Positions 8,120-64,000 of a stretch of DNA of 64,000 bases are shown one piece after another. Position numbers and translations under genes: made by a program. The notes beneath the pieces are model-generated. The model did not search any database. It was not told where the DNA came from and saw only the letters and a program-made list of their open reading frames with translations. The first letter of the stretch is position 1; each line of letters starts with the position of its first letter. This stretch comes from Branchiostoma floridae (Eukaryota > Chordata > Leptocardii > Amphioxiformes > Branchiostomatidae), in contig NC_049984.1 of assembly GCF_000003815.2 (NCBI RefSeq), forward strand, positions 17,462,453 through 17,526,452. Direction: 5' to 3'.

Positions 8120-8600
8120 GCGAACGACATTCATATTGGAATTATTCCAAAGTCAAACATTTAATAATCACATAAAATAATCAATAACTTCATAAAATCC
8201 GGATGACTACAGTTATCAAAGGATTTTGATTGGCACCAGAAACGTCTGTAAATTCACTGAATTTTTTTGTCGTGTAGTGAGAACGACATTCATATTGGAA
8301 TTATTCCAAAGCTATGCATTTAATAATCACATAAAATAATCAATAACTTCATAAAATCCGGATGACAACACTTATGGTAGAATCTTGGTACTGGCGCCAG
8401 AAACGTCTGTAAATTCACTGAATTTTTTTGTCCTGTAGTGTGAACGACGTTCATATTGGAATTAAGATAAACATTTCATAATCACATAAAATAATCAATA
8501 ATTTCATAAAATCCGCATAACAAAAGTTATCGACGGATCTTGGAACTGGCGCCAGAAACGTCTGTAGATTCACTGAAAAGTTTTGTCGTGTAGATTGAAT
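8120..8600. repeat. Three tandem copies of an about 160-bp repeat
   Basis: Each unit starts GAACGACATTCATATTGGAA, continues TAATCACATAAAATAATCAA, and ends with CCAGAAACGTCTGTA and TTTTGTCGTGTAG. Units begin near 8123, 8281 and 8443. Divergence between units is visible, so it is not a recent expansion. No coding potential. Confidence 0.8.
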
Positions 8601-10774: not shown

Positions 10775-11312
10775 AAAAAGCGTGTAAAACTAGAAAGACA
10801 CAGAGAACACCCTAGAAACACTCGTAAAAGTAGTATTGGAGCACTACATTTGCTTGTAGATTAGTACCGTTACTATCATATAAATTCTAACAGACTAAGA
10901 CGGATGGACTATTTAGGATAGTGACTGTAGTGTAGACCTTATCAAAGTGCTTGTGTCTCCAGTGAAAAGACACAGAAATACCATAGAAACACTCGTAAAA
11001 GTAGTATTGGATCCATACATTTGCTTGTAGATTAGTACAGCTACTACCGTGCAAATTCTAATAGAATAAGACAGATGTACTATCTAGGATAGTGAAGTGT
11101 AGTGTAGACCTTATCAAATAGCTGGTGTCTCCACTAGAAGGACACAGAAAACACCACATGCAGAAACACTCTTAAATAATATAGTATTGAAGCCCTACAT
11201 TTGCTTGTATATTAGTACAGTTACTATCGTACAAATTCTAACAGACTAAGACAGATGGACTATTTAGGATAGTGACTGTAGTGTAGACCTTATCAAAGTG
11301 CTATTGTCTCCA
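10775..11312. repeat. Three tandem copies of an about 177-bp repeat
   Basis: Units contain AGAAACACTCGTAAAAGTAG, TTTGCTTGTAGATTAGTAC, CTATTTAGGATAGTGA and TGTAGACCTTATCAAA in fixed order, beginning near 10785, 10965 and 11140. Non-coding and moderately diverged. Confidence 0.8.
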
Positions 11313-25239: not shown

Positions 25240-25960
25240 AAACCTACAGAAAATTTAAAAGCCAGATTTAAAATATTACTTTACCTTACAAGACTTTCTG
25301 TTCTTTGTATCATGTAGATGACAAATTGGAAATAACTTGCATGAAAAAACCTACAAAACAAATTTAAAAGCCAGATTTATGATATCAACTTACAAGACTT
25401 TCCGTTCTTTGTGCCATGTCTCTGTACGATACAACAGGCGGAATACCAGAAAGTCCTCCTATAGGCACAGACATATCAATCAACGGACAAAAGACATGAA
25501 AATGAAAATATAACATTACCTTACAAGACTTTGATAAACGATACTTCCCAACTTTTTTTTTTGTCAAACCTTGGAAAACACTTCGTTTGAAATACGGCCC
25601 TTTGTATCGCTGTGGTTCGGAATGATCGCCATGGCTATATCAATCAACTCATAACGGCATGAAAATGAAAATATAATATTACCTTACGAGACTTTGATAC
25701 ATGATACTTCCCAACATTTTTTGTCAAACCTTGGAAAACACTTCGTTTGAAATACGGCACTTTGTATCCCCGTTGTACGAAATGATCGCCATGGCTATAT
25801 CAATCAACTCATAACGACATAAAAATGAAAATATAATATCACCTTACAAGACTTTGAATAACTATACTTCCCAACTTTTTTTTGTGAAACCTTGGAAAAA
25901 CGTCTTTTGAAATACGGCCCTTTGTATCCCCGTGGTACGGAATGAGTGCCCGACTAATGT
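25240..25960. repeat. Tandem repeat, about 165-bp unit, three good copies plus older ones
   Basis: Units carry ATATCAATCAACTCATAACG, ATGAAAATGAAAATATAA, ATTACCTTACAAGACTTTGA, ACTTCCCAACTTTTTT and CCTTGGAAAACACTTCGTTT. They start near 25467, 25627 and 25795. The preceding region 25240-25420 has shorter, older related copies (TTTAAAAGCCAGATTT, ACAAGACTTTC). Confidence 0.75.
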
Positions 25961-45578: not shown

Positions 45579-46071
45579 ATTTCTATCGACGGTCGAAGAA
45601 CGGAATTTGCACAAATTTGAAGGCATCGGACGTGTTCAAATTTAGGTGGAAATGATGTAATCACCTCCTGTGAAGCGAGCAATTTTGAAATAGTTCACGT
45701 AATGCTAAGGTCAAGTTTCTAAACAAGGGGCCCGACAAGGAATGTTTGCAGGAACGAAAAAAAATAAAGTGATATACACAAGTTATGTTCATGACTAGCT
45801 TCTTAACATTTTGGTAGTTCTGTGTGTTTTGTTGTCTTTTATATCAACCTTAACGTTATACTTTTCTATTTCGAAAGTTTCCCGGCCGGGCCCCGGTTTG
45901 AAAATGTGATTGTAGCATACGTGTAAACTTGTATATAAACCTTATCTTTTGTATTTTGCACTTCTAATAAGTATAGGGACTTGATTATAAATAGCTCTCT
46001 TTAGCACGGAGGCTGTACAGACTTTGTTGTCAATATGATGAACTCTTTACATGTCTGATTTTTTTTTTCAG
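45579..46071 (+). promoter_or_regulatory. Upstream region and 3' splice site before the receptor CDS
   Basis: A T-run ending TTTTTTTTCAG at 46071, followed by ACCAAC and two ATGs, is a textbook acceptor. The receptor therefore most likely has an upstream non-coding exon. A half copy of the CCCGGCCGGGC MITE (TTTCCCGGCCGGGCCCCGGT) lies at about 45825-45905 in this presumed intron. Confidence 0.55.
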
Positions 46072-46077
46072 ACCAAC

Positions 46078-47337
46078 ATGATGAACGAAAGTGCTGAAAA
46101 CGCAACAGCGGCCACACCGGAGTCCATGGGTGACGGCTCGGCTCTGTCCCTGGAGGTTACCGTACTCCTGGCGGTCCTCATCTCCATCGCCGCGCTGCTG
46201 ACCATTGCAGGAAACGTCCTGGTCATCGTGTCCTTCATCCTGGTCAAGGAGCTACGCATCTCCAGCAACTACTTCATCCTGAACCTGGCCATAACGGACT
46301 TCGTGATCGGCGTGTTCGCGATGCCGGTGTACGCGCCGTATCTGCTTAGCGGCGTGTGGAAGCTAGGAGAGACCTTCTGTACGATCTGGTTGGTGATAGA
46401 CTATGTGGATGGCTCCGCATCCGTTCTCAGCATCACCCTCATCAGCCTGGACCGGTACCTACTGGTCACCAAAGCGATCAAGCACCGCGCGCAGAGATCG
46501 CTGAAGAAGACAGTGATCATGATGGTCAGTGTGTGGATCATCGCGTTCCTCCTGTACGGACCTGCCATTCTGATATGGAGAACCCTGTCTGGCGTGGAAC
46601 TGCCTGAGGGAAAATGCTACGTAGGATTCCACGACAACTTCCCCTTCTTGTTCTCCACCGCTCTTGTTGAGTTCTTCTTGCCCTTCACGTCGGTTGCCGT
46701 GATGAACTTTGCAACGTACTGGAGTATCAGACGGAGGGGGAAGCGGCTACGTCGTCACGGCGCCATGCGCACCAGTAACATCAGAGGCGAACGGAAAGGC
46801 AAATCCATGGTAAAAGTGACCAGAAAAACGCAGCTGCACCTCAGACCACCAGTGGCAAAAGAGAGAAGACTCTCTCGGACACACACCTTTCCACCGGCAC
46901 AACAGGACATCAAAAACGCCAAACAGATCAAACGGAGGGAAGAGCTGGTTGAAAGAGTGTCAGACCTCACGAAGAACACCCGAGCGCGGGAAAAGAAAGC
47001 CGCGAGAGCTCTGGCTATCATCGTCACGACCTTTGCTATCTGCTGGGCGCCGTACACCATCACCATGCTGGTACGTTCCCTATGTAGGAGCTGTGTGAGC
47101 GACACTCTGTTCGAATGGGCGTTCTGGATGCTTTGGCTCAACTCCATGCTGAACCCATTCCTGTACGCCATGTGCCACATGCAGTTCCGAGAGGCCTTCA
47201 AGAAGCTGCTTGGGCCTTTCTTCTGCCGCTGTTGGAAATGTATGACCAGAAAAAACCCAAAACGTCCTTCTCTCACAGACATCAACAAGTTACCCTCGCC
47301 GGTAGAGAAGCAGAAAGATACGAATGGAGTCATCTAG
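46078..47337 (+). CDS. Aminergic GPCR, histamine H3/H4-receptor-like
   Basis: A class A seven-transmembrane receptor of 419 residues in a single coding exon. I start at ATG 46078: the in-frame ATG at 46051 lies inside the polypyrimidine tract of the acceptor at 46071. Landmarks: N-glycosylation sequons at N3 and N8; N46 (TM1); D74 (TM2); C101 and C180 (disulfide pair); D108 (3.32, the amine-binding aspartate); DRY at 125-127; W153; E198 (5.46, the acidic TM5 residue typical of H3/H4 receptors, where most aminergic receptors have serine); a 90-residue basic third loop; CWAPY at 322-326; W353 (7.43); NPFLY at 359-363. The juxtamembrane Cys cluster FFCRCWKC could be palmitoylated. YGPAIL in TM4 and a short P-E-G-K-C-Y loop also favour H3. 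Coupling would by family be Gi/o. The ligand is unproven. Confidence 0.9.
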   Translation: MMNESAENATAATPESMGDGSALSLEVTVLLAVLISIAALLTIAGNVLVIVSFILVKELRISSNYFILNLAITDFVIGVFAMPVYAPYLLSGVWKLGETFCTIWLVIDYVDGSASVLSITLISLDRYLLVTKAIKHRAQRSLKKTVIMMVSVWIIAFLLYGPAILIWRTLSGVELPEGKCYVGFHDNFPFLFSTALVEFFLPFTSVAVMNFATYWSIRRRGKRLRRHGAMRTSNIRGERKGKSMVKVTRKTQLHLRPPVAKERRLSRTHTFPPAQQDIKNAKQIKRREELVERVSDLTKNTRAREKKAARALAIIVTTFAICWAPYTITMLVRSLCRSCVSDTLFEWAFWMLWLNSMLNPFLYAMCHMQFREAFKKLLGPFFCRCWKCMTRKNPKRPSLTDINKLPSPVEKQKDTNGVI

Positions 47338-47822
47338 TTGATCGAACCTTTCTTCTGCCGCTACTAGAGATGTATGACCAGGGACAAGTCAAAGCGTTAT
47401 TGTCTTACATACATCAACAACTTACCCTCGCCACTAGGGAAACAAAAAGAATGGAGTCATCTAGCTGCTTGGTCGTTTCTTGTGTGTCGAAAAAAAGACT
47501 AAAGCGTTCTTCTGTCACGGTCATCAACAACTTAAGCTCGCCAGTAGTGAAACAGAAAGATACGAATGGAGTCATACAGCTGCTCGGGACCTTCTTCTGC
47601 CGCTATATAGCTTCTGGAGATGTATGACCAGGGACAAACCAAAACGCTCTTCTCTCACAGACATTACAACCTACCCTCGCCGGTAGAGAAACAGAAAGAC
47701 ACGAATGGAGTGATCTAGTTGCTCGGCCCTTTCTTCTGTCGGTGTTGGAAATGTGTGCCAAGAAACAGACTTAAGCGTTCTTCTCTCACAGACAATAACA
47801 ACTTAGCATTGTCCGACAAAAG
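47215..47822 (+). repeat. Five tandem copies of the receptor C-terminal-tail coding segment
   Basis: Unit 1 (47215-47346) is the last part of the receptor CDS, from PFFCRC through the stop. Degenerate copies follow at 47347-47473, 47474-47589, 47590-47727 and 47728 to about 47822. Each has TTTCTTCTGCCGCT, ATGTATGACCAG, CGTTCTTCTCTCACAGACAT, AACAACTTACCCTCGCC and AGAAACAGAAAGATACGAAT, then GGAGTCATCTAG. Copies carry indels and stops, so they would lie in the 3' UTR. Short frames over them are relics. Confidence 0.9.
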
Positions 47823-48198
47823 TTTTCTGTATGGACATGTGTGACAAACACTAGCCGAGCTACCACCAGCAGAAGGATAAGATTTACAGGGTATTACTAA
47901 AGACCAAGGGAGCCGCTCGAAGTGATGAACATATGACGAGTCATGAAAACCATATTCTTGTTTCCTTCCTTAGTCTTCGGTTTGTCTTTTCTATCTTTTG
48001 TGACGAATTCTTGGAGAACAAAAAACACTGAACAGTACGTAGTATCAAGACATTCTGTATTATAACTTTCAGATTAAGTAAATAACTTATTATCCAGAAT
48101 ACCTAACATTGCTAACAAGAAGCATCGTAGGTAATACAGTGTAAGTCTATGGTTAATAGTCTTATATTGTGACATTTTATATTGTGACATTCTATCAG
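47823..48198. other. Intergenic gap between two convergent genes
   Basis: I see no canonical AATAAA on either strand. TTATATTGTGACATT is duplicated at 48163-48190. Confidence 0.5.
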
Positions 48199-48344
48199 TT
48201 AGACGTCGTCCCCGAAGCCAAGTATGTTTAGTAGGACGTCAGCCTCGTTGTCGTTCCAGTCGGACCAGTCCAGTGCGCGTGCGCGTCTCAGCTTTAGGTC
48301 AACGTTCAGAATGTCAGAGGTCATGTTCAGAGTCGTGGCGTCAT
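48199..48344 (-). CDS. ARM-like gene, exon 4 (terminal)
   Basis: 146 bases from TTGACCTCAG| to TAA at 48201-48199. Residues 159-206, reading DDATTLNMTSDILNVDLKLR then ALDWSDWNDNEAD and VLLNILGFGDDV. The D/W-rich segment between two helices is notable. Confidence 0.85.
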
Positions 48345-51300
48345 CTGAGGTCAACATAAAAGTCATTTATAGTATTGCAGGAAAGAATCATGCAAGATCA
48401 CAATTCAAGAATACATGTCAAACCTGTACCTTGACCACTCAAAGCCAAAGGACCTGATGAAAGAAAGTGGTTACAGTGAACGCTAACGTGTGGTGACTAT
48501 TGACATGGTTTTCAATGTTTTTGATAATGGCAAAAAAGAAATCAAAGTAACCACCAAAAAGTGGCAAGAATGGCCGGATGATCCACATACAAATGTGCTC
48601 AATAGTACATAAAGGTTTCATTGTATACCAGGCTGTTTTCGTTTAGATACAACGTTAGTCTTGATTTCTCTTACAAAACACGCTTTCCAGATCAATTCAA
48701 CACGGTTTCATAATATATGCTGGGATATATTTAAAAAGAAAGGTTTGGGAACTGAGATTTGTAAATTTGATATTCTGTAAATTTTGTTATGCTGTGTTAT
48801 GAACAATCTCTTGTGAATGACTGTTGCAAGTTCGAAAGTATAACTATCATATCTCTTTCACCACTCCTACTCTTCTGAAAATATTTAGAGTGTTATTCTC
48901 GTCATACCCATCAATTTGATTTGATTTGCTTTATTCGGCTGTATAGTGAGAAATATAGCCAGGGCTACCCAACTAGCCGGAGGCTATTATCAAGGGCTAT
49001 CCCTGGTAACTGTAATATACAATTACATTTGTCGATACATGAGGTTTGTTGTTTGAGCTAGGTTTTACAGGCAACAAAAGATATGGATGTCAACAAATAC
49101 TTCAGTGCGCTTTGTGTGTAAGCGTTCATATGGCGCAATCATTGCTTGTGTTGTGTGGACGTCAACGGTCATTAAAAGTTATTATTATATTAACTGGTTA
49201 TTGTTGAAGGTTTCTAGTAAACCAGTGCATATTCTGAAGAATTACGCGGAAGTCAATCCTGAAAGCTTTCCGTGACGGTAGTCCATCTCTATCCGCAGGG
49301 TAACCTATATCCGTTGCATTTAAAGCCAAGATATTTGCGGATATCAAGTCCAAGGACGGTGGCTTCAAACTACAATATTTTGGAAAAAACACCATCCGTC
49401 GACTAGCTATGACTTAATAAGATGTTTTACGTACAACGGATATAGGTTACCCCGCGGATAACGGTGAACTAGCGTTAAAGGTGGTATCTCACTGAACTTG
49501 GGGAAGCGGTGCGGCAATGCGGGGTTCGAAGGATTAGATAACGAGTTGCAGAAATAAAGAACTAATTTTCTTACGTTTTGTGTAGTTTGTTGTCTTCTAA
49601 GTCATACGTTTACGTATTACGCAATATCCAGATTTGAGAAAAATTACCGAAAATAATACAACAGTGCATCAGTGAACGTACCCCACAGTGTCGCACCGGT
49701 GCCCCAAGTGCAGTGAGATACCACCTTTAATCATTGGAAATACAGTTTGACCTACCGGACACCATGATTTTGAGCGTGTAGCACGCCCACCGCTGGAGGT
49801 TCGGTTCTCCCGTACTGCTGGCCATGTTGATGAGACTTTGAACCAGGCCGAGTTTGCGAAATTCAGCCAGAAGAGCGTCGTCAGAATAACAGATGCAAAA
49901 CTCTCCTGTTCGGGAGGAGGAGAAAAGTAAGACCCAAGTTACAATTTTACGCTCATTTTTACACACATTTAAGCTGTAAGAATACGTATTGTAGTCTACT
50001 AACGTTACAGGTACTATAGTAGACTACGATATGTAGTACTACACGTACAAATTCAAGAAACAAGAGTTAAGTGTAAATTGGGCCTAATACATCGCAGTTT
50101 TGTGTGAGAACCTCACAGCGGTTCAAGAAATGAATATTTAAGCCAAGGAATTTTTAAGATCCTGAAAATATAGGATTGCTAAAAAAAGGGATTCTCTTTG
50201 TTTCATGTGTATTGGTCTCGAAAGTTAATGTAAAACTGAAAAGCGTATTTTTATGGACATCACATTGTGAGCATATCCAGACATACGTTGCACAAATTTG
50301 TGAACTGAGCAAACAAGTACAATATTTACTACATACACGTTACTTCGACTGTTTTAAGACTAATTTGTAACATACCTACCTACCTAGTGAGAGAGAAATG
50401 GTTTATTGCCATTGACATTAAAAACTCTTGCAGCACATTTACAAAATGCTGAATTGCCGTTTTTTTACAGTCAGTATTTCATTCTCTAAAAGTTAAAATA
50501 ATTAAAAGTCTAGTCTCTGGACCTCATGGTCGTTGGTGGGACAAATTAATCTGTTAATAGATTAGATTTCATAATACAGGAAGTCTCCTTTTGATATCAT
50601 CACTCAGATGTCTGATCCAAATTTCATGTTCCTTGCCAGCGGCCGACCCCCCAAAAGGTTAGCTAGGGTTGGTAGGTTTTTGCTAGAGTTGGTGGTGCAA
50701 TCGAAAACATGACATTGTTCCTAGGGCTAATTGGCTGTTATTGAAGTTTGAACCAACAGTTTAAAAGCATGGACGTCAAAGATTGCTTCTGGTATAAATG
50801 GATGACGTCATACTGACCTAGAGCAGCCATACAGGCTATCCGCAGTCTCACGGACGAGGTCGACTCGTTCAATACGAAGACAATTTTACTGACGTACTCC
50901 AGCGCTGCTTTGGAACAATCTCCACCTGAAAACAACGGCATAGATTCAGAAATTGTGGGTTTAACTTAATCGTGTTTACTAGAAACAAATTGGTGAACAC
51001 ATAAGAATACATATCACAAGAGAACTGGAGATCTTTAAGCAAAGAAGTGTGCTCACAAAACTTCTTCGGTGTCAGAATAATCCCTTGGTGGAATAGCCTA
51101 CATGAGACAATAGTGGTTTCTCCCACCATAAACTGCTTCAAGGAGAGGCTGGACAGGCTCATGCGGAAACCGAGCCCCAGACAACCCCCACAAACTGGAA
51201 ATGTTTGTGACATAGAAGCGAAGAGCGGCCCCTAAAATGGAACCATCCGTTTCCGGAATTCCTACCTGGCTGAAGAAAACTCTACTCTAGTCTTCTGTAT

Positions 51301-53774: not shown

Positions 53775-56711
53775 CTATTTTCTACAAGCTTCGTCCCTCC
53801 TCTTAAAACAAGAGTAAACGAACTTACACAGTTCTTCCAATATGTCATAGTTAGTTGATGACATCAGATATTTAAACATGTCTACCTTTGTTATGTTTGT
53901 ATATTTCTCTTCAACACGTTTAACATTAACAAGGCTATTACGCATATCATTGTACAGAGAACACTCTAGTACAAAGTGCATTTCATTTTCTATACATCTG
54001 ACATTCTTATTACAAAACATGCATATTCTATCGTCAGGAGGAGTTCGGGTGTATCTGCCAGCTTCAATTTGCAGTGGGTGATCGCTGATCCTTAATTTAG
54101 TCATGGCTCGGCGATAACTAAAATTTGTTATCTCTAGGTACTTTTCTCTTTCATAAGTAAGCTTGAATTTTCTGTAGGTTCTTAACTTATTACCTTGGTT
54201 TTCCTTCATGCCAGGAGAATTCATTTCGGAGTAAAAATTTTGAACAAAGTTGTCTTTCAGTCTTTGGTTTACTTCGGACTGAGCGAAAGATGTGTTGCGA
54301 TCACTGTTAATCAAAAGATAGGCAAAACCAGACTCCTCCAGGATTTTACTAACATTGGAAAACCAGCATGGTATGTTGCGACTGTGTAAGTCCTGCTGTA
54401 CAAGAAAAGCTTCAAATTGTAGACTATTTCTTGGCACTTCTTTAACTAATCTTTTGTAGTATGAATACAATCTAGTATATACTTCGATCCACAGAGGATA
54501 CCTGCCTAGTTCTGCCCTTGTTGCAAGATTACTTGAGTTTTTTCTTACGCCTAATAACGACTTGCAAAACTTCAGATGAACTTGTTCAATGGGTGACTTA
54601 TCATTTAATCCGATTTTGCCCCATACCTCTGCACCATAAGTCAATATTGGGACAACGCAGGCATCAAATAATTTACAATATACTGAAATTGAAGGATTGG
54701 TTTCACCTAGTGTTGTTTTAATACTGAACAAAGCTCTTAGCGCCTTCTTTTGTAGTGTTTTTAATGCTGTTGTGAAGTTGCAACCTGTTGTAAGCACCAC
54801 TCCTAAATAGCAATATGAAGAAACTATCTCTATGTCTTCGTTGAGTATATGAAATTTGAGATTTGAGAACATATGACCCTTTTTGTTAAATACGATTATT
54901 TTTGTCTTATTTATGTTAACTGATAATTTCCATTTGTTGCAATAGAGACCTAGTTTATCAATTGCATTTTGAAGACCATTTTGGCTAGTTGATAGTAGGA
55001 CAAGGTCGTCGGCATAAAATAAACTTGATACTTCAGATGTATTTAGCAAGGGCGCATCAAAATCTCCTGTATTCAGTTCGTCTGCTAAGTCACTGATATA
55101 AAGGTTAAATAGTGAGGGACTTAGAACACAACCTTGCCGCACTCCTATTTTGACAGGGAAATTTTCACTTAAACCTATATTTGTTTTCACACTCGCTGCG
55201 GATTGACTATATAAACTTTTTAGCATATCAAAAAATCTACCGGAAATGCCTTTTGATATGAGTTTGAATAATAGGCCCTCGTGCCAAATTGAATCAAATG
55301 CCTTGGATAGATCCACAAAGCAAGCAAATAGTTGATTTCTTGACTGTGTATATTTGGAAATCAACGTTTTCAGAACAAATATGTTATCTGACGTTCTGTA
55401 ATTCTTTCGGAACCCTGCTTGATTAGGTTTAAGAATTTTGTTTTCCTCGAGAAAAGAGGAGAGCCTTTTGTTTAGTACAGAGGTAAACAGTTTCCCGAGA
55501 CAGCTAGAAATGGAAATCCCGCGGTAGTTGTTAGTGTCGTCTTTTCTCCCTGATTTGAATATGGGCACTATGTAGCTTTTTGACCAGGTCTGGGGGAATT
55601 TTCCACTAAAAAAGGTGCGATTGAATAATGCAACAAGAGGCTTTAAAAGTAAGCTGTGTCCCGCTTTCAGCATTTCGTTAATTATCATGTCTTCGCCGCT
55701 CGCCTTTTTGTTTTTGAGAGCCGTTATTGCACTACTTATTTCAGCCTCCGTGATTTGGCAATCAAGAGGCCCTTGCTCTTTGTTGTGTTCCTCCAGTGCC
55801 TTTAGATTGTCTTTAATTTTCATTTCAAATTCAGTGTCAAAATTTTGCCTCTCAAGCCTACGTTTTTCATGTAATGCTTTGAAGTGAGTTACCCATGAAT
55901 CAGGCGGAATTTCTTCTAAAGCTTTTGGAGTAGAATTGGCGTTTTTAAATTGTTTGAGTAGATTCCAAAAGGCGGTTGGATTATTTTCCTGAAGATTTTG
56001 GAGCTGCATTAAACAGTCAGTTTCATAGTCTTTTTTGCGCTTTCGAATTAGTTTGTTGTATTCCTTTTTCTTCCTAAAATAGCTACCTCGAATAAAAGGG
56101 TTCTTTGGGTTTCGTTGCAATAAATATTGCAGATTACGGAGCTCTTTCCGGGCCTCGAAGCAATTTTTGTTAAACCACTTTTTATTTGTTCGTAGTTTTT
56201 TTTGTTTACTGTTATGTTTGATTTGTAGTGACATTTTCCCCGCTATTTCTAAGATTTCCTGAAAATTGTGAACTTCTTTGTCGATGTCTGCATTTAAGAT
56301 TGAGTTTAGATGCGTTGACAAATTAAAATTTTCAAGCTTGTGCGATAATGCTTGGCTGCGTAAAGCATTTATAAACTTTTCGCTGGAGTCCGGTCCCCAG
56401 ACAAATCTGTCTGGCAAAGGTCGCATATTTATTTTGGGTGTTTCGTTTTGAGATTCTTGTATAAGTGTCTTAATGTTTAGCGAGATCATACAATGATCAG
56501 AAAATTCGGTCAATGGATGTACTCTAAATATATTGATATTGTGGAAGAGGGTACTGCTAGCTATGGCATAATCCACAGTGCTACAGCCGTTAGGCTGGTA
56601 GCATGTGAATCGGCCGCTGAGATCTCCCAGGACTCGCCCATTTAGAATGTGGAGGTTGGATTGGTAACATAAATCAGTCAAATCTTTGCCAAATGTGTTT
56701 GGCGGGTTTTT
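53775..56711 (-). pseudogene. LINE ORF2: endonuclease C-terminus and reverse transcriptase
   Basis: An uninterrupted frame of 968 codons is counted from TTG 56681, continuing upstream in frame through SDKNPPNTFGKD to the frameshift. In order: endonuclease end with DYAIASS and the catalytic SDH in EFSDHCMIS; RT finger blocks IVPIFKSG and NNYRGISISS; VDLSKAFDSIWH (about residues 455-466); GVRQGCVLSPSLFNLYISDL; the catalytic FYADD at about 555-559; a C-terminal knuckle CMFCNK ... HFVLEC (about 887-906). It ends FKRRDEACRK. All RT motifs are intact. Because the start lies beyond a frameshift, the copy is presumably inactive unless the shift is a sequencing artefact. Clade not assigned. Confidence 0.85.
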
Positions 56712-56712
56712 A

Positions 56713-57279
56713 TCAGAATAATTTCTTGGCAGAATCTATTGGAGTTTCGTCCGCGAAGTCTTTCAAGGAACCTAATCGACTATTAAAGTCTCCTCCGAGA
56801 ATCACAAAACCTCTGGACGTAAAACGTGCCACGTCCTGTTCTAGTACATCAAAGATAGATTCTTCAGATCTTTTGTGGATCGAAGAGTTTACAGGACTGA
56901 TATATACATTACCTATGAATACGTCTCTGGATAGGCCAAACAATTCCTTGGCTACATGGATCCAGAGAATATCTTTGCTTTCTGAAGTGCTGCTCTCTCG
57001 TCTTATAAATTTTGCTAGTTTGTTTTTAAAATAAAAGATAATTCCACCTGAGTTCCGTCTGGCTTTACTTTGTTTGTTCCTTAGAGATGAAAAGTGCTGA
57101 TAATGTTGTAGATCAACTTCTGACGTATCATTACTCCATGTTTCAAGGAGGGAGAAGAAATCTAATTTTTCTAAACTGTTTCTAAAATCGTTGACTTCAA
57201 GTTTTTTTCCTAAACCATGAACATTCCAAAAACCTATGGATATAGAGTGAGGAGACATTTGTAACCTTGACATTGTCAT
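56713..57279 (-). pseudogene. LINE ORF2 N-terminus: APE endonuclease
   Basis: A frame of 188 codons beginning MTMSRLQMSPHSISIGFWNV. It carries the APE motifs FWNVHGLGKK (motif with catalytic N), LLETWS (catalytic E), NVYISPVNS (Y) and ILGGDFNSRLG (D and N). It ends KKLF-stop at 56713, where the sequence slips by one base into the next frame, which continues the protein. It is the first half of the same ORF2. Confidence 0.8.
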
Positions 57280-57682: not shown

Positions 57683-57886
57683 CGAATTTTCTCTCACACA
57701 GAAGGGTTGAAAAAGGTCTCACACACAGACAGATTTTTCTCTCTCACACAACAGTTGAAAAAGGTCGCACACATTGACAGATTTTTGTCTCTCACACAAC
57801 CGTTAGAAAAGGTCGCACACATCGACAGATTTTTCTCTCCCACTCCAAAGTTGAAAAACTTCGCACACAGTAACAGATTTTCAAAA
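57683..57886. repeat. Minisatellite, about 48-bp unit, four copies
   Basis: TTTTCTCTCTCACACAACAG, TTGAAAAAGGTCGCACACAT and TGACAGA repeat four times with CGTTAG/CAGTTG variants. The words TCTCTCACACA and CACACAGA also occur in the satellite that follows. Confidence 0.8.
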
Positions 57887-58505
57887 GGTGATTTTTTTAC
57901 CATGTGTTGTCCTATATCATTCTTCACAAATGTTATAAATGCAAGCATATACAGACGGTTTCTCGGTTCAACATGTACTTTATTCTTCAATATAGAGGCT
58001 ATTATATTGTTTTAGTGAATACCGTGACCGGTATTCAAATCCATTTCTATTTCAGCATTAATGATACAATGGCCAGTATGAATTTGACTTTTGACCTGTT
58101 ATATAGCTTATATGAGTTGCCTTTTTCCCATAGAGACATGTATTTGAAATATACCGCGTAGCTGGAATGTCTCTGGATCCATAGAATGCACGCACACATG
58201 TCATATAAGTTGTCCTTCACCGACTCAAACTTGCACGCTCGATATCTTTCTTAGATACTCTTTCCGATCGTTCATGCAGTCATACATAATATCTGTAAAA
58301 ACAAATATTATCCAAAAACCGAGGCTGATTTTTTTTTTCACATACACAGCAAGAAGTTTATGCAAGTCAGTCACCCATGGTAAGAAAGCTTAAGGTGGAA
58401 AAAAATCCGTCCCTGAAGAGAACTGGTTAAAAGATCCTTGTTCGGATGTATAAGTACGACGACTTTAAAGTTTTGGGGGTTGATTGCATTCTTCACATAG
58501 TGCAG
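57887..58505. other. Unassigned stretch
   Basis: Nothing recognised. The last part grades into degenerate satellite-like text from about 58506. Confidence 0.5.
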
Positions 58506-60334
58506 ACACCACGAGAATATGTCGCGTCAACAAATGTGCAATTTTTTGTCTCAAACACTTGCAGAAATCAACTCTCAAACACATATCGAATTATTCTTTC
58601 CACAGACAAACTATTCTTTGATACAGCAGACATTTTTATTCCGACACACAAACACTAGAATTCTCTCTCACACACAGCACAAAAAGTTCTCTCACTTCGC
58701 GAGGCTTTCCCTGCCAACCCGGCTGGAGGAGTGAGCGATTTTTTCGTCTGAGTGAGAGCGAAATTTGGTCGATGTGAGAGCGCTTTCGGAGTAGTGGAAG
58801 AATAACTTGCTTGAGTTTTCTGAAGTTCAAAATGGCAATGAACAGTGTCATTTACTTCAGTTTCCAATAATAAACCTTTTCAAAAATGACATTCTGTTAT
58901 ATTATAGACATTTCCTCGACAATCATATCATTCCGACACACAACGCAGAAATTCTCTCTCACCCACGGAACAACAAGTTCTCTCACCTCGGAGGCTTTCC
59001 CCGCCGATCAGGCTGGAGGAGTGAGCGATTTTTTTGGTCTGAGTGAGAGCGAAATTTGGTCGATGTGAGAGTGCTTTAGGAGTAGTGGAAGAATAACTTG
59101 CTTGAGTTTTCTTAACTTCCAAATGGCAATGAACAGTGTCATTTTCTTGTTTCCACTAATAAACCTTTTTAACAATGACATTCTGTTATATTATAGACAT
59201 TTCCTCGACAGTCATATTATTCCGACACACAACGCTAAAATTCTCTCTCACCCACAGAACAAAAAGTTCTCTCACCTCGGAGGCTTTCCCCGCCGATCAG
59301 GCTGGAGGAGTGAGCGATTTTTTTGGTCTGAGTGAGAGCGAAACTTTGTCGATGTGAGAGTGCTTTCGGAGTAGTGGAAGAATAACTTCATTGAGGTTTA
59401 TTTAATCAAAATGCACAATGATCACTGAAATTTTATTTTGTTTGCAACGATATATATCATACAATAATGATCGCTTATACCAAAGATATTGTCTTGACAA
59501 TCAATATCATTCTGACACACAATACTGAAATTCTCTGTCACCTACATCACAAAAAGTTCTCTCACTTCAAGAGGCCTCCCCTGCAAACCCGGATGGAGGA
59601 GTGAGCGAATGTTTGGTCTGGGTGAGAGAGAAAATTGATCGATGTGAGAGCCCTTTCGGAGTAGTGGAAGAATAACTTCCTTAAGTTTTCTTAACTTCTA
59701 AAGGGGAATGAACAGTGTCATTTTCTTCAGTTTCAAATAATAAACTATTTTAACAATGACATTCTGTTATGTTATAGACATTTCCTCGACAATCACTTTA
59801 TTCCGACACACAACGCAGAAATTCTCTCTCACCCACAGAACAAAAAGTTCTCTCACTCCGGGAGGCTTCCCTGCCAACGCGGCTGTAGGAGTGAGCGATT
59901 TTTTTGGGTCTGAGTGAGTGCGAACTTTTGTCGATGTGAGAGCGCTTTTGGAGTAGTGAAAGAACAACTTCTTTTAGTATTTTTTACTTAAAACCCAAAA
60001 TAAACACTGACATTTTATTCAGTTTGTAACGATATACACTATACAATACCAATCACTTATACCAAATATTAAAGATATTGTCTTGACAATCAATCTTTTT
60101 CCGACACACAACGCTAAAATTCTCTCTCACACACAGAACAAAAAGTTCTCTCACTTCGGGAACTTCCCCTGCCAACCCGACTGTAGGAGTGAGCGATTTT
60201 TTTGGGTCTGAGTGAGTGCGAACTTTTGTCGATGTGAGAGCGCTTTCGGAATAGTGAAAAATAACTTCCTTCAGTATTTTTTCACTTTAAACGCAAAATA
60301 AACGCAGACATTTTGTTTAGTTTGTAACGATATA

Positions 60335-61597
60335 CACACAGCACAAAAAGTTTGGAATGTCAACTTCGGTTGATCATATTTATGTTGTTTCTGCATCAAT
60401 TTCAATATATTATATATCTATAGAAAGCTTGCATGATTTTCTTTCTGATGGTATCAAACTCATTATCATTGTTAACTCATGGAACATACACTAGGCTTGC
60501 TAACGTGAGTGGGTCACGAAAAAAAGTGCCCAAATTCCCCCGTTTCTGTTCAAAACTGTATCGTCCGGTTCAACCGTTGTTATGGCCGCGGGTGACAATG
60601 ATTCAATCAATCCTTTTATCACCTAACATTTGGTATACAGAACATCCAAGTTTCTTTTTAGTATATCTGAGTAGAGTATTTTATGAGTGTAAATTCATGA
60701 AACGAGGACTAGCCCCGCTTACGTACAGGGGGTCCTAAAGACAAAGTGCCAAAATTACCCTACTAAAGTCAATCACTCCATTCTGCTCATTTTCTTCCGT
60801 CAGTATTGACTTGTGAATGAAGGCAAGTTGAATAAACAGGACATGTCAATCAAAGCTACTATTACTCTTTATTCAAGCAAAAAATCTGAACCATGGCAAG
60901 GGTGATCAATCGAGTGCTAGCCATAAGCCGTAGGACGGTTATTCCACCCTAAGACTGTGCTCCAGCATCCAATGGTCCTTGCTCTGTGTGGACTGGTGTT
61001 GTAATCTTGCAGAATGGCATTTGGTAAAATATTGAAGAGGTAAAATGTTGCTACTGGATGGAGGATGGTGTCCCTATATGTCACCACATTAATTTGCCTG
61101 GAATGATGACGAGTCTTGTTTACCCTATGGTGGTTATACCGCCAAAAACCATGACGCTGTCTCCACCACCAAATGCCGAAAGTTACTCTTGTCATGTCAG
61201 CGTGCCGCTCTCCTTGCCGCATCCACGCTTTGATTCTGCCATCCAACTATCGAAAGGGCAGATGAACTCTACTCAAGTGTACTAAAACCTTGTATGTTTC
61301 ATATACAAAATGTGAGTTGAAAAGAGGATTGATTGAACCAGTGACACACGCGCCAATATCAACAGGGCGATGCAGTTTTGAACAGAAGTAGGGGAATTTG
61401 GGCACTTTTTTTTCGTGACCCACTCACGTAAGCAGGCCTTGTGCTCGTTTCATGTGTTTACAATCATAATAGGTTTGATACCATAGGAAAGAAAATCACA
61501 CAAGCTTTCTATTGATATATAATACATTGAAATTGATGTATAAATAACGGAAATATGATATACCAAAGTTGATATTCCAAACTTTTTGTGCCGAGTG
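60335..61597. mobile_element. Decayed Tc1/mariner transposon inserted in the satellite
   Basis: The ends CACACAGCACAAAAAGTTTG and (right complement) CACTCGGCACAAAAAGTTTG start inverted repeats that stay alignable for about 280 bp, with a strong inner block GTGAGTGGGTCACGAAAAAA then GTGCCCAAATTCCCC. This is the long-IR/DR layout of Tc1-like elements. TA flanks both sides (60333-60334 and 61598-61599). Joining the flanks gives CGATATACACTATACAAT, exactly the satellite spacer, so the empty site is known. Length 1263 bp, transposase decayed. Confidence 0.9.
60917..61246 (-). pseudogene. Tc1-like transposase C-terminal remnant
   Basis: One frame reads NVVTYRDTILHPVATFY then NAILQDYNTSPHRAR, the family block around the second catalytic aspartate (Q-D-x-N-x-x-P-H). 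In another frame of the same strand, just upstream, lies FGGGDSVMVFGGIT, the G-G-G-S-V-M-V-W-G-G-I block, with stops. At least two frameshifts and several stops separate the blocks. The N-terminal DNA-binding half is gone. Confidence 0.8.
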
Positions 61598-64000
61598 TAC
61601 ACTATACAATACCAATCACTTATACCAAATATTAAATATATTGTCTTGACAATCAATCTTTCTCCGACACACAACGCTGAAATTCTCTCTCACCCACAGA
61701 ACAAAAAGTTCTCTCACTTCGCGAGGCTTCCCTGTCAACGCGGCTGTAGGAGTGAGCGATTTTTTCGTCTGAGTGATAGCGAAATTTGGTCGATGTGAGA
61801 GCGCTTTCGGAGTAGTGGAAGAATAACTTGCTTGAGTTTTCTGAACTTCAAAATGGCAATGAACAGTGTTATTTTCTTCAGTTTCCAATAATAAACCATT
61901 TTAACAATGACATTCTGTTATGTTATAGACATTTCCTCGACAATCACTTTATTCCGACACACAACGCTGAAATTCTCTCTCACCCACAGAACAAAAAGTT
62001 CTTTCACCTCGGGGGCTTTCCCCGCCAACCAGGCTGGAGGAGTGAGCGATTTATTTTGGTCTGAGTGAGAGCGAAATTTGGTCGATGTGAGAGCGCTTTA
62101 GGAGTAGTGGAAGAATAACTTGCTTGAGTTTTTTTATCTTCTTAAAGGCATTGAATAGTGTCATTTTCTTCAGTTTCCAATAATAAACCTTTTCAAAAAT
62201 GACATTCTGTTATATTATAGACATTCCCTCGACAATCATATCGTTCCGACACACAGCGCAGAAATTCTCTCTCACCCACAGAACAAAAAGTTCTCTCACT
62301 CCGGGAGGCTTCCCTGCCAACGCGGCTGGAGGAGTGAGCGACTTTTTGGGTCTGAGTGAGTGCGAACTTTGGTCGATGTGAGAGCGCTTTTGGAGTATAG
62401 AAAGAACAACTTCTTTTAGTATTTTTTTACTTAAAACCCAAAATAAACACTGACATTTTATTCAGTTTGTAACGATATACACTATACAATACCAATCACT
62501 TATACCAAATATTAAAGATATTGTCTTGACAATCAGTCTTTTTCCGACACACAACGCTGAAATTCTCTCTCACACACAGAACAAAAAGTTCACTCACTCC
62601 GGGAGGCTTCCCTGCCAACGCGGCTGTAGGAGTGAGCGCTTTTTGGGGTCTGAGTGAGTGCGAACTTTTGTCGATGTGAGAGCGCTGTCGGAATAGTGAA
62701 AGAATAACTTCCTTCAGTATTTTTTCACTTTAAACGCAAAATAAACGCTGACATTTTGTTTAGTTTGTAACGATATACACTTTACAATACCAATCACTTA
62801 TACCAAATATTAAAGATATTGTCTTGAAAATTAATCTTTTTCCGACATACAACGCTGAAATTCTCTCTCACACACAGAAAAAGTTCACTCACTTCGGGAG
62901 GCTTCCCTGCCAACCCAGCTCTAGGAGTGAGCGAATTTTTGGTCTGGGTGAGAGAGAAAACTCGTCGATTTGAGAACGCCTTCGGAGTAGTGAAAGAATA
63001 ACTTCCTGGAGATTTATTTACTTCAAACGCAAAATAAATATTGACATTTTGTTCAGTTTGAAAAGATATACACGATCAATCTTTTTCGACACACGACGCT
63101 AAAATTCTCTCTCACACACAGAACAAAAAATTCTCCCACTTCGGGAAGCTTCCCCTGCCGACCAGGCCGTAGGAGTGACCGATTTTTTGGGTCTGAGTGA
63201 GAGCGAAATTTTGTCGATATGAGACCGCTTTCGGAGTAGTGAAAGAATAACTTACTTGAAGTTTATTTACTTAAGACTCAAATCAACAACTGACATTCTG
63301 TACAGTTTGAAACGATATACATTATACAATAACGATGACTTATACCAAAGATGATGTCTTGACAATCAATCTTTTTCCGACACACAATGCTAAAATTCTC
63401 TCTCACACACAGCACAAAAAGTTCTCTCACTTCGGGAGGTTCTCCTGCCAACCCTGCTGTAGAAGTGAGCGAATGTTTTGGTCTGAGTGAGAGCGAAATT
63501 TTGTCGTTGTGAGAGCGTTTTAGGAGTAGTGAAAGAACAACTTCCTTCAATATTTTTTCACTTAGAACACAAAATAAACGCTGACATTTTGTTCAGTTTG
63601 CAACGATATACACTATACAATGACAATCACTTATACCAAATATTAAAGATATTGTCTTGACGATTAATCTTTTTCCGACACACAACGCTGAAATTCTCTC
63701 TCACCCACAGAACAAAAAGTTCTCTCACTTCGGGAGGCTTCCCTGCCAACGGGGCTGTAGGAGTGAGCGATTTTTTGGGTCTGAGTGAGTGCGAACTTTT
63801 GTCGATGTGAGAGCGCTTTTGGAGTAGTGAATGAACAACTTCTTTCAGCATCATTTCACTTCAAACGCAAGATAAACACTGACATTTTGTTTAGTTTGGT
63901 ACGATATACACTATATATGGTACTTTTGTCTGAATTTCAACAGGGTCTGCAAACTTCTCTAAGTAGATTAGAAAATTATTGTTAATCATGGAAGTTAAAG

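Follow-up and report, generated by a model that had tools for sequence, protein, structure and literature searches.

A decaying tandem array of C-terminal tail and stop codon copies probably lies in the 3' untranslated region of an amphioxus histamine H3/H4-like receptor gene

In the 64-kb stretch of Branchiostoma floridae DNA analyzed here (the window), the last coding segment of a receptor gene is followed head to tail by several damaged copies of itself, and the unit that is repeated contains the stop codon. This arrangement raises the question of whether the copies serve the receptor as a store of extra or alternative C-terminal tails or whether they are noncoding duplicates in decay. A preliminary description of the locus had called the gene an H3-like receptor, and homology supports that name. 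The predicted protein contains a Pfam 7tm_1 domain (E 1.8e-57), its best match among solved structures is the histamine H3 receptor (E 1.5e-84), and it thus has the class A seven-transmembrane (7TM) domain and is closest to H3/H4 receptors. The nearest protein among the matches listed was B. lanceolatum "HRH4" (P0002), with 89% identity, followed by a "histamine H3 receptor-like" protein from a B. floridae x B. belcheri assembly (P0003), with 88%. Judged by these relationships, the open frame at 46078-47337 is a histamine H3/H4-like receptor. Alternatively, translation may begin at the second Met (46081), where database record P0001 starts. A stretch resembling a 3' splice site, as read from the sequence only, ends at 46071, just 5' of the coding sequence.

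The first repeat unit is the end of this receptor. Its 132 bp correspond to exactly 44 codons, counting the stop, and the Cys cluster that it encodes is kept in both Branchiostoma relatives. The stop codon is shared by position as well: both relatives end in NGAI-stop, and the B. floridae protein ends in NGVI-stop (47335-47337). Inside the tail, the B. lanceolatum protein has five additional residues and the hybrid-assembly record has one. Because both relatives share the tail and the position of the stop, unit 1 is most likely the functional original and the stop at 47335-47337 the ancestral end of the gene, as comparison of the predicted proteins indicates. The proposal that the first repeat unit is the working receptor tail thus holds. 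The features of the locus are listed in Table 1.

Table 1. Features of the receptor gene and the adjoining tandem array (positions are those of the window)
Feature	Position	Strand	Remarks
Histamine H3/H4-like class A GPCR coding sequence (predicted)	46078..47337	+	419 codons + stop, single open frame
Unit 1, most likely the functional tail	47206..47337	+	LLGPFFCRCW...DTNGVI + TAG; similar tail and identical stop position in P0002 and P0003
Unit 2, 127 bp	47338..47464	+	79.5% identity to unit 1; terminal TAG kept
Unit 3, 115 bp	47465..47579	+	80.9% identity to unit 1; terminal TAG changed to CAG
Unit 4, 139 bp	47580..47718	+	87.0% identity to unit 1, the closest copy; terminal TAG kept
Unit 5, 87 bp, truncated	47719..about 47805	+	79.3% identity to unit 1 over 87 bp
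A_AAA_AAC heptamer, slippery type	47250..47256	+	Zero frame of unit 1; probably chance
Open -1 frame, not considered a gene	47088..47627	+	179 codons + stop; from before TM7 through units 1 to 3 into unit 4

Several searches delimited the array, which spans 47206 to about 47805 and consists of five units on the + strand. A direct-repeat search, which makes no prior assumptions, found two families: one of 125 nt with four copies at start-to-start spacings of 132, 110, and 139 bp, and one of 140 nt with three copies at spacings of 132 and 381 bp. When 47150-47999 was compared with the window by blastn, off-diagonal matches with 68 to 80% identity (E 2.8e-17 to 2.8e-55) all fell within 47204-47805, and no copy of the tail was found elsewhere in the 64 kb, the remaining off-diagonal matches having E values of 0.55 or worse. 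Local alignment of unit 1 with units 2, 3, 4, and 5 gave scores of 116, 100, 149, and 87, respectively, while the maxima of 1,000 dinucleotide-preserving shuffles per copy were 26 to 31; the flanks aligned to unit 1 at background level, with scores of 20 after the array and 17 before it. With the default threshold, Tandem Repeats Finder did not report the 47206-47805 array, whose copies are presumably too divergent for it. The edges of the units were set by the recurrent change at the junctions from a unit end, TAG (CAG in unit 3), to CTG or TTG. These edges coincide: AAG/CTG precedes unit 1, and the four junctions are TAG/TTG, TAG/CTG, CAG/CTG, and TAG/TTG. The tandem repeat that had been claimed is therefore real, with a strong self-match in place of the dot plot without periodicity that would have spoken against it. 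Its limits needed adjustment: an array is present in the span first given, 47215-47822, but the homology begins at 47206 and stops near 47805, and there are indeed four downstream copies, but with the lengths shown in Table 1 instead of 116 to 138 bp. Minisatellites are usually defined by units of roughly 10 to 100 bp, and the complete units of this array, at 115 to 139 bp, are larger than that.

Other repeats occur in the window at a distance from the receptor. A non-LTR retrotransposon-like element occupies 53775-57279 on the - strand, with an endonuclease-domain open reading frame at 56716-57279 (Pfam Exo_endo_phos, E 5.9e-08) followed by a reverse transcriptase open reading frame at 53778-56681 (Pfam RVT_1, E 7.7e-37). 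Tandem arrays lie upstream (5') of this element, at 57687-63897, with 48-bp units at 57687-57881 and longer arrays at 58636-60291 and 61609-63897, whose units of about 289 to 298 bp have consensus sequences that look alike by eye. Arrays of about three copies were found at 8122-8593, 10789-11312, and 25473-25945, with periods of 155, 171, and 160 bp, near the size of the globin repeats discussed below, and inspection by eye revealed no exon close to any of them. Seven window arrays with periods of 61 to 171 bp, taken from 23 Tandem Repeats Finder rows, were checked for adjoining exons, and none was recognized by eye among open segments of at least 45 codons.

All four downstream copies show damage. 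In unit 2, the codon at 47365-47367 is an in-frame TAG instead of the TGG of unit 1, and 5 bp are deleted; unit 3 lacks 17 bp relative to unit 1, in the Cys-cluster region, and has lost its terminal stop; and unit 4 carries an 8-bp insertion and a 1-bp deletion. Thus, units 2, 3, and 4 each contain a frameshifting indel. Unit 5 is open across its 29 codons, after which the similarity ends. The indels, the in-frame stop, the changed stop, and the truncation confirm the earlier view of decaying copies born from coding sequence. The statement that every copy has a stop-bearing end of its own is true of units 2 and 4, which keep TAG, but not of unit 3, with CAG, or of unit 5, which lacks that end. 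Changes found in a single copy (private changes) were distributed 9/9/12 over codon positions 1, 2, and 3 (n = 30; chi-square P = 0.74), so that no overall coding constraint is visible in the copies; by unit, there were 3 private changes in unit 1 and 11, 9, 6, and 4 in units 2 to 5. A check of the copies for synonymous bias, which had been suggested earlier, gave a divided answer, with no overall bias among private changes but an excess at third positions in the comparison with unit 1, where differences summed over the four unit 1-copy pairs, all of which share unit 1, were 21/19/43. Between units 4 and 1, 8 codons differed synonymously and 7 nonsynonymously, and in units 4 and 5 taken by themselves the private changes fell 2/1/7, which are small numbers. 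We read the third-position excess, on these small numbers, as changes made in unit 1 while it was coding together with exchange between the copies and unit 1. A past coding use of units 4 and 5 is conceivable. The analysis turned up no function for the copies, which most likely have none of their own.

The history of the array was examined at 17 sites that could be polarized with the two relatives. Unit 1 was derived at 2 of the 17, and each of these two states was shared with copies. Copies 2 to 5 share a base at 47266 that differs from the one in unit 1 and both relatives, where it begins a Pro codon, and all four copies encode Asn where unit 1 and both relatives carry Lys; the copies therefore group together. 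The most parsimonious of the 15 possible trees paired U2 with U4 and U3 with U5 (63 steps; the next tree required 64), with weak bootstrap values of 0.76 and 0.65, respectively, and the 3' part favored U4-U5 instead. The pairing of U2 with U4 and U3 with U5 is the pattern expected from a two-unit duplication and is a weak sign of one. Three polarized sites within the first 61 bases form three pairs (47242/47251, 47242/47266, and 47251/47266), each of which shows all four combinations of states; this points to exchange between units or to recurrent mutation.

Downstream of the receptor, a scan of 47200-48700 for eight poly(A) signal hexamers found the first one, AGTAAA, at 48077; AATAAA and ATTAAA are absent from this interval. 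The first hexamer is located beyond the array, which places the array probably within the 3' untranslated region (3' UTR) of the receptor. At about 48199-48350, on the - strand, there is an open segment ending ...DWSDWNDNEADVLLNILGFGDDV-stop, which may be the final exon of a gene oriented toward the receptor gene.

Overall, we favor a local tandem duplication of the tail together with its stop, after which the array underwent unequal exchange and its copies decayed within what is presumably the 3' UTR, a reading to which we assign a probability of about 0.85. The 132-bp segment that reaches from the AAG/CTG boundary shortly after TM7, in what would be the helix-8 region, through the stop TAG would have been duplicated in place. 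Because they stand behind a stop codon shared with the relatives, the copies would most likely have been untranslated from birth, as part of the 3' UTR. The array may then have grown by unequal exchange, perhaps two units at a time, as the tendency toward U2-U4 and U3-U5 pairs would suggest. The copies would have decayed through substitutions and indels while unit 1 stayed constrained as the receptor tail. A later deletion must be assumed for unit 5, whose truncation a one-step duplication does not explain.

Among the alternatives, the one that keeps most weight is that the array serves as a store whose sequence is exchanged with that of the functional tail by gene conversion, so that it shapes the receptor C terminus. 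The four-combination sites and the two derived states that unit 1 shares with copies are what such exchange would leave, but only three sites are concerned, recurrent mutation fits them equally well, and any exchange could have run in either direction; we consider this reading unlikely. Its stronger form, in which the noncoding array feeds variants into the C terminus and the 44-codon unit with its own stop spares the transmembrane core, is distinctly improbable.

Another alternative is a modular receptor tail that is lengthened or swapped through loss or suppression of the stop or through alternative splicing. The 44-codon length of unit 1 does put the start of unit 2 in frame, and units 1, 4, and 5 have a pyrimidine-rich AG site at corresponding positions (47277, 47659, and 47790). 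However, translation past the receptor stop would add only nine codons, LIEPFFCRY, before the TAG in unit 2, contrary to the earlier expectation that stop loss adds tail modules. Swapping of tails by alternative 3' splicing fared no better, as a search of 46001-47900 confined to a few strong donor patterns gave a single match, at 47070, before TM7, and its use would delete TM7, as placed by homology. In addition, the proteins of both close relatives have the same end point, and their extra residues lie inside the tail. A second tail module was absent from the eight homologues inspected, all from Branchiostoma or the window itself and taken from the best 120 of 166 homologues; two vertebrate proteins among the others listed were also compared. 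A modular tail is thus very improbable.

It is likewise hard to credit that the copies are what remains of tandem duplications of the entire receptor gene and not of its tail alone. The copied sequence is the 3' end of the gene, as such remnants could be, but searches of the window with the receptor body (46078-47205) gave, apart from the receptor itself, nothing better than E 2.5 by blastn or E 3.2 by tblastn, and every junction is at the same edge, immediately after the last codon of the preceding unit.

Finally, programmed -1 frameshifting at the A_AAA_AAC heptamer would join the receptor to about 125 codons through units 1 to 3, the last of which, in unit 3, would be read in a true tail frame. 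The heptamer does occupy the zero frame, and the -1 frame stays open as far as 47624. Chance seldom leaves the part downstream of the heptamer open, as it did so in 6.7% of drift simulations and in 0.34% of mononucleotide shuffles. Against this, synonymous codon shuffles of the coding sequence placed a classical heptamer (one of 11 listed) in the zero frame in 43% of cases and had an open -1 frame from the heptamer to the end of the coding sequence in 39%, and the RNA fold downstream of the heptamer was unremarkable, with 142 of 200 shuffles folding at least as well. The relatives lack the site, since their tails (CVTRDRRKR and CVTGDKLKKR) have no Lys-Asn at that place, and the -1 frame product had no homologous protein at an E value of ≤10 among 258 candidates. 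Of the earlier suggestion that a frameshift extends the receptor, the openness of the -1 frame to 47624 remains, but this frame is not the tail frame in units 1 and 2, and with neither a homologous protein nor an unusual fold we regard such frameshifting as extremely unlikely.

The local duplication of tail and stop can be compared with two kinds of known repeats. In the variable-number tandem repeats (VNTRs) of receptor and transporter genes, e.g., DRD4 exon 3 and the SLC6A3 3' UTR, the units lie wholly in coding sequence or wholly in the UTR. The amphioxus array is like these in being a tandem repeat in or beside a neurotransmitter receptor or transporter gene, but its unit is tail plus stop. 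Closer parallels are the amphioxus "mirages," tandem copies of exon-intron boundaries described in the globin genes BflGb6 and BflGb9 and in Adh3 (PMC3087553 and PMC3902484) and in TnC and PGBD5 (PMC3902484). Their units measure 150 to 160 bp in BflGb6, 157 bp in BflGb9, and 10 to 72 bp in Adh3 (PMC3087553 and PMC3902484) and 108 and 60 bp in PGBD5 (PMC3902484). BflGb6 haplotypes have six or three repeat units, which are 81 to 100% identical; the term "minisatellite-like" is used for units of 150 to 160 bp, and regular splicing of Adh3 and globin mRNA is reported to be undisturbed by the mirages (PMC3087553).

Like a mirage, the receptor array lies in a lancelet gene and consists of a few head-to-tail copies of a genic segment that carries a gene-structure signal and adjoins the authentic segment. 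Its units are within the size range of those of BflGb6, BflGb9, and PGBD5, the Adh3 units being shorter, and are 71 to 87% identical to one another, compared with the 81 to 100% described for the BflGb6 mirage. In contrast to the mirages, the duplicated boundary is that between coding sequence and stop codon and not between exon and intron, and the receptor frame is uninterrupted from 46078, with the copies after the stop. The segment does not appear to span an exon-intron boundary, as the proteins of the relatives read through it. Thus, the array is a variant and not a strict mirage because it straddles the stop codon. The words "stop codon" do not occur in the main texts of PMC3087553 and PMC3902484, and among the papers listed in searches of a mostly open-access literature, no title or abstract opening mentions a stop-codon-straddling array in amphioxus. 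As far as anatomy shows, the array resembles the mirages, and its placement on a stop codon rather than a splice site appears to be the new aspect. A single decayed array changes little in the understanding of the receptor itself. It would, however, widen the amphioxus pattern of tandem duplication at gene-structure boundaries from splice sites to the stop codon and, if other lancelet genes are alike, would point to a simple route by which C termini are copied and later tested by mutation.
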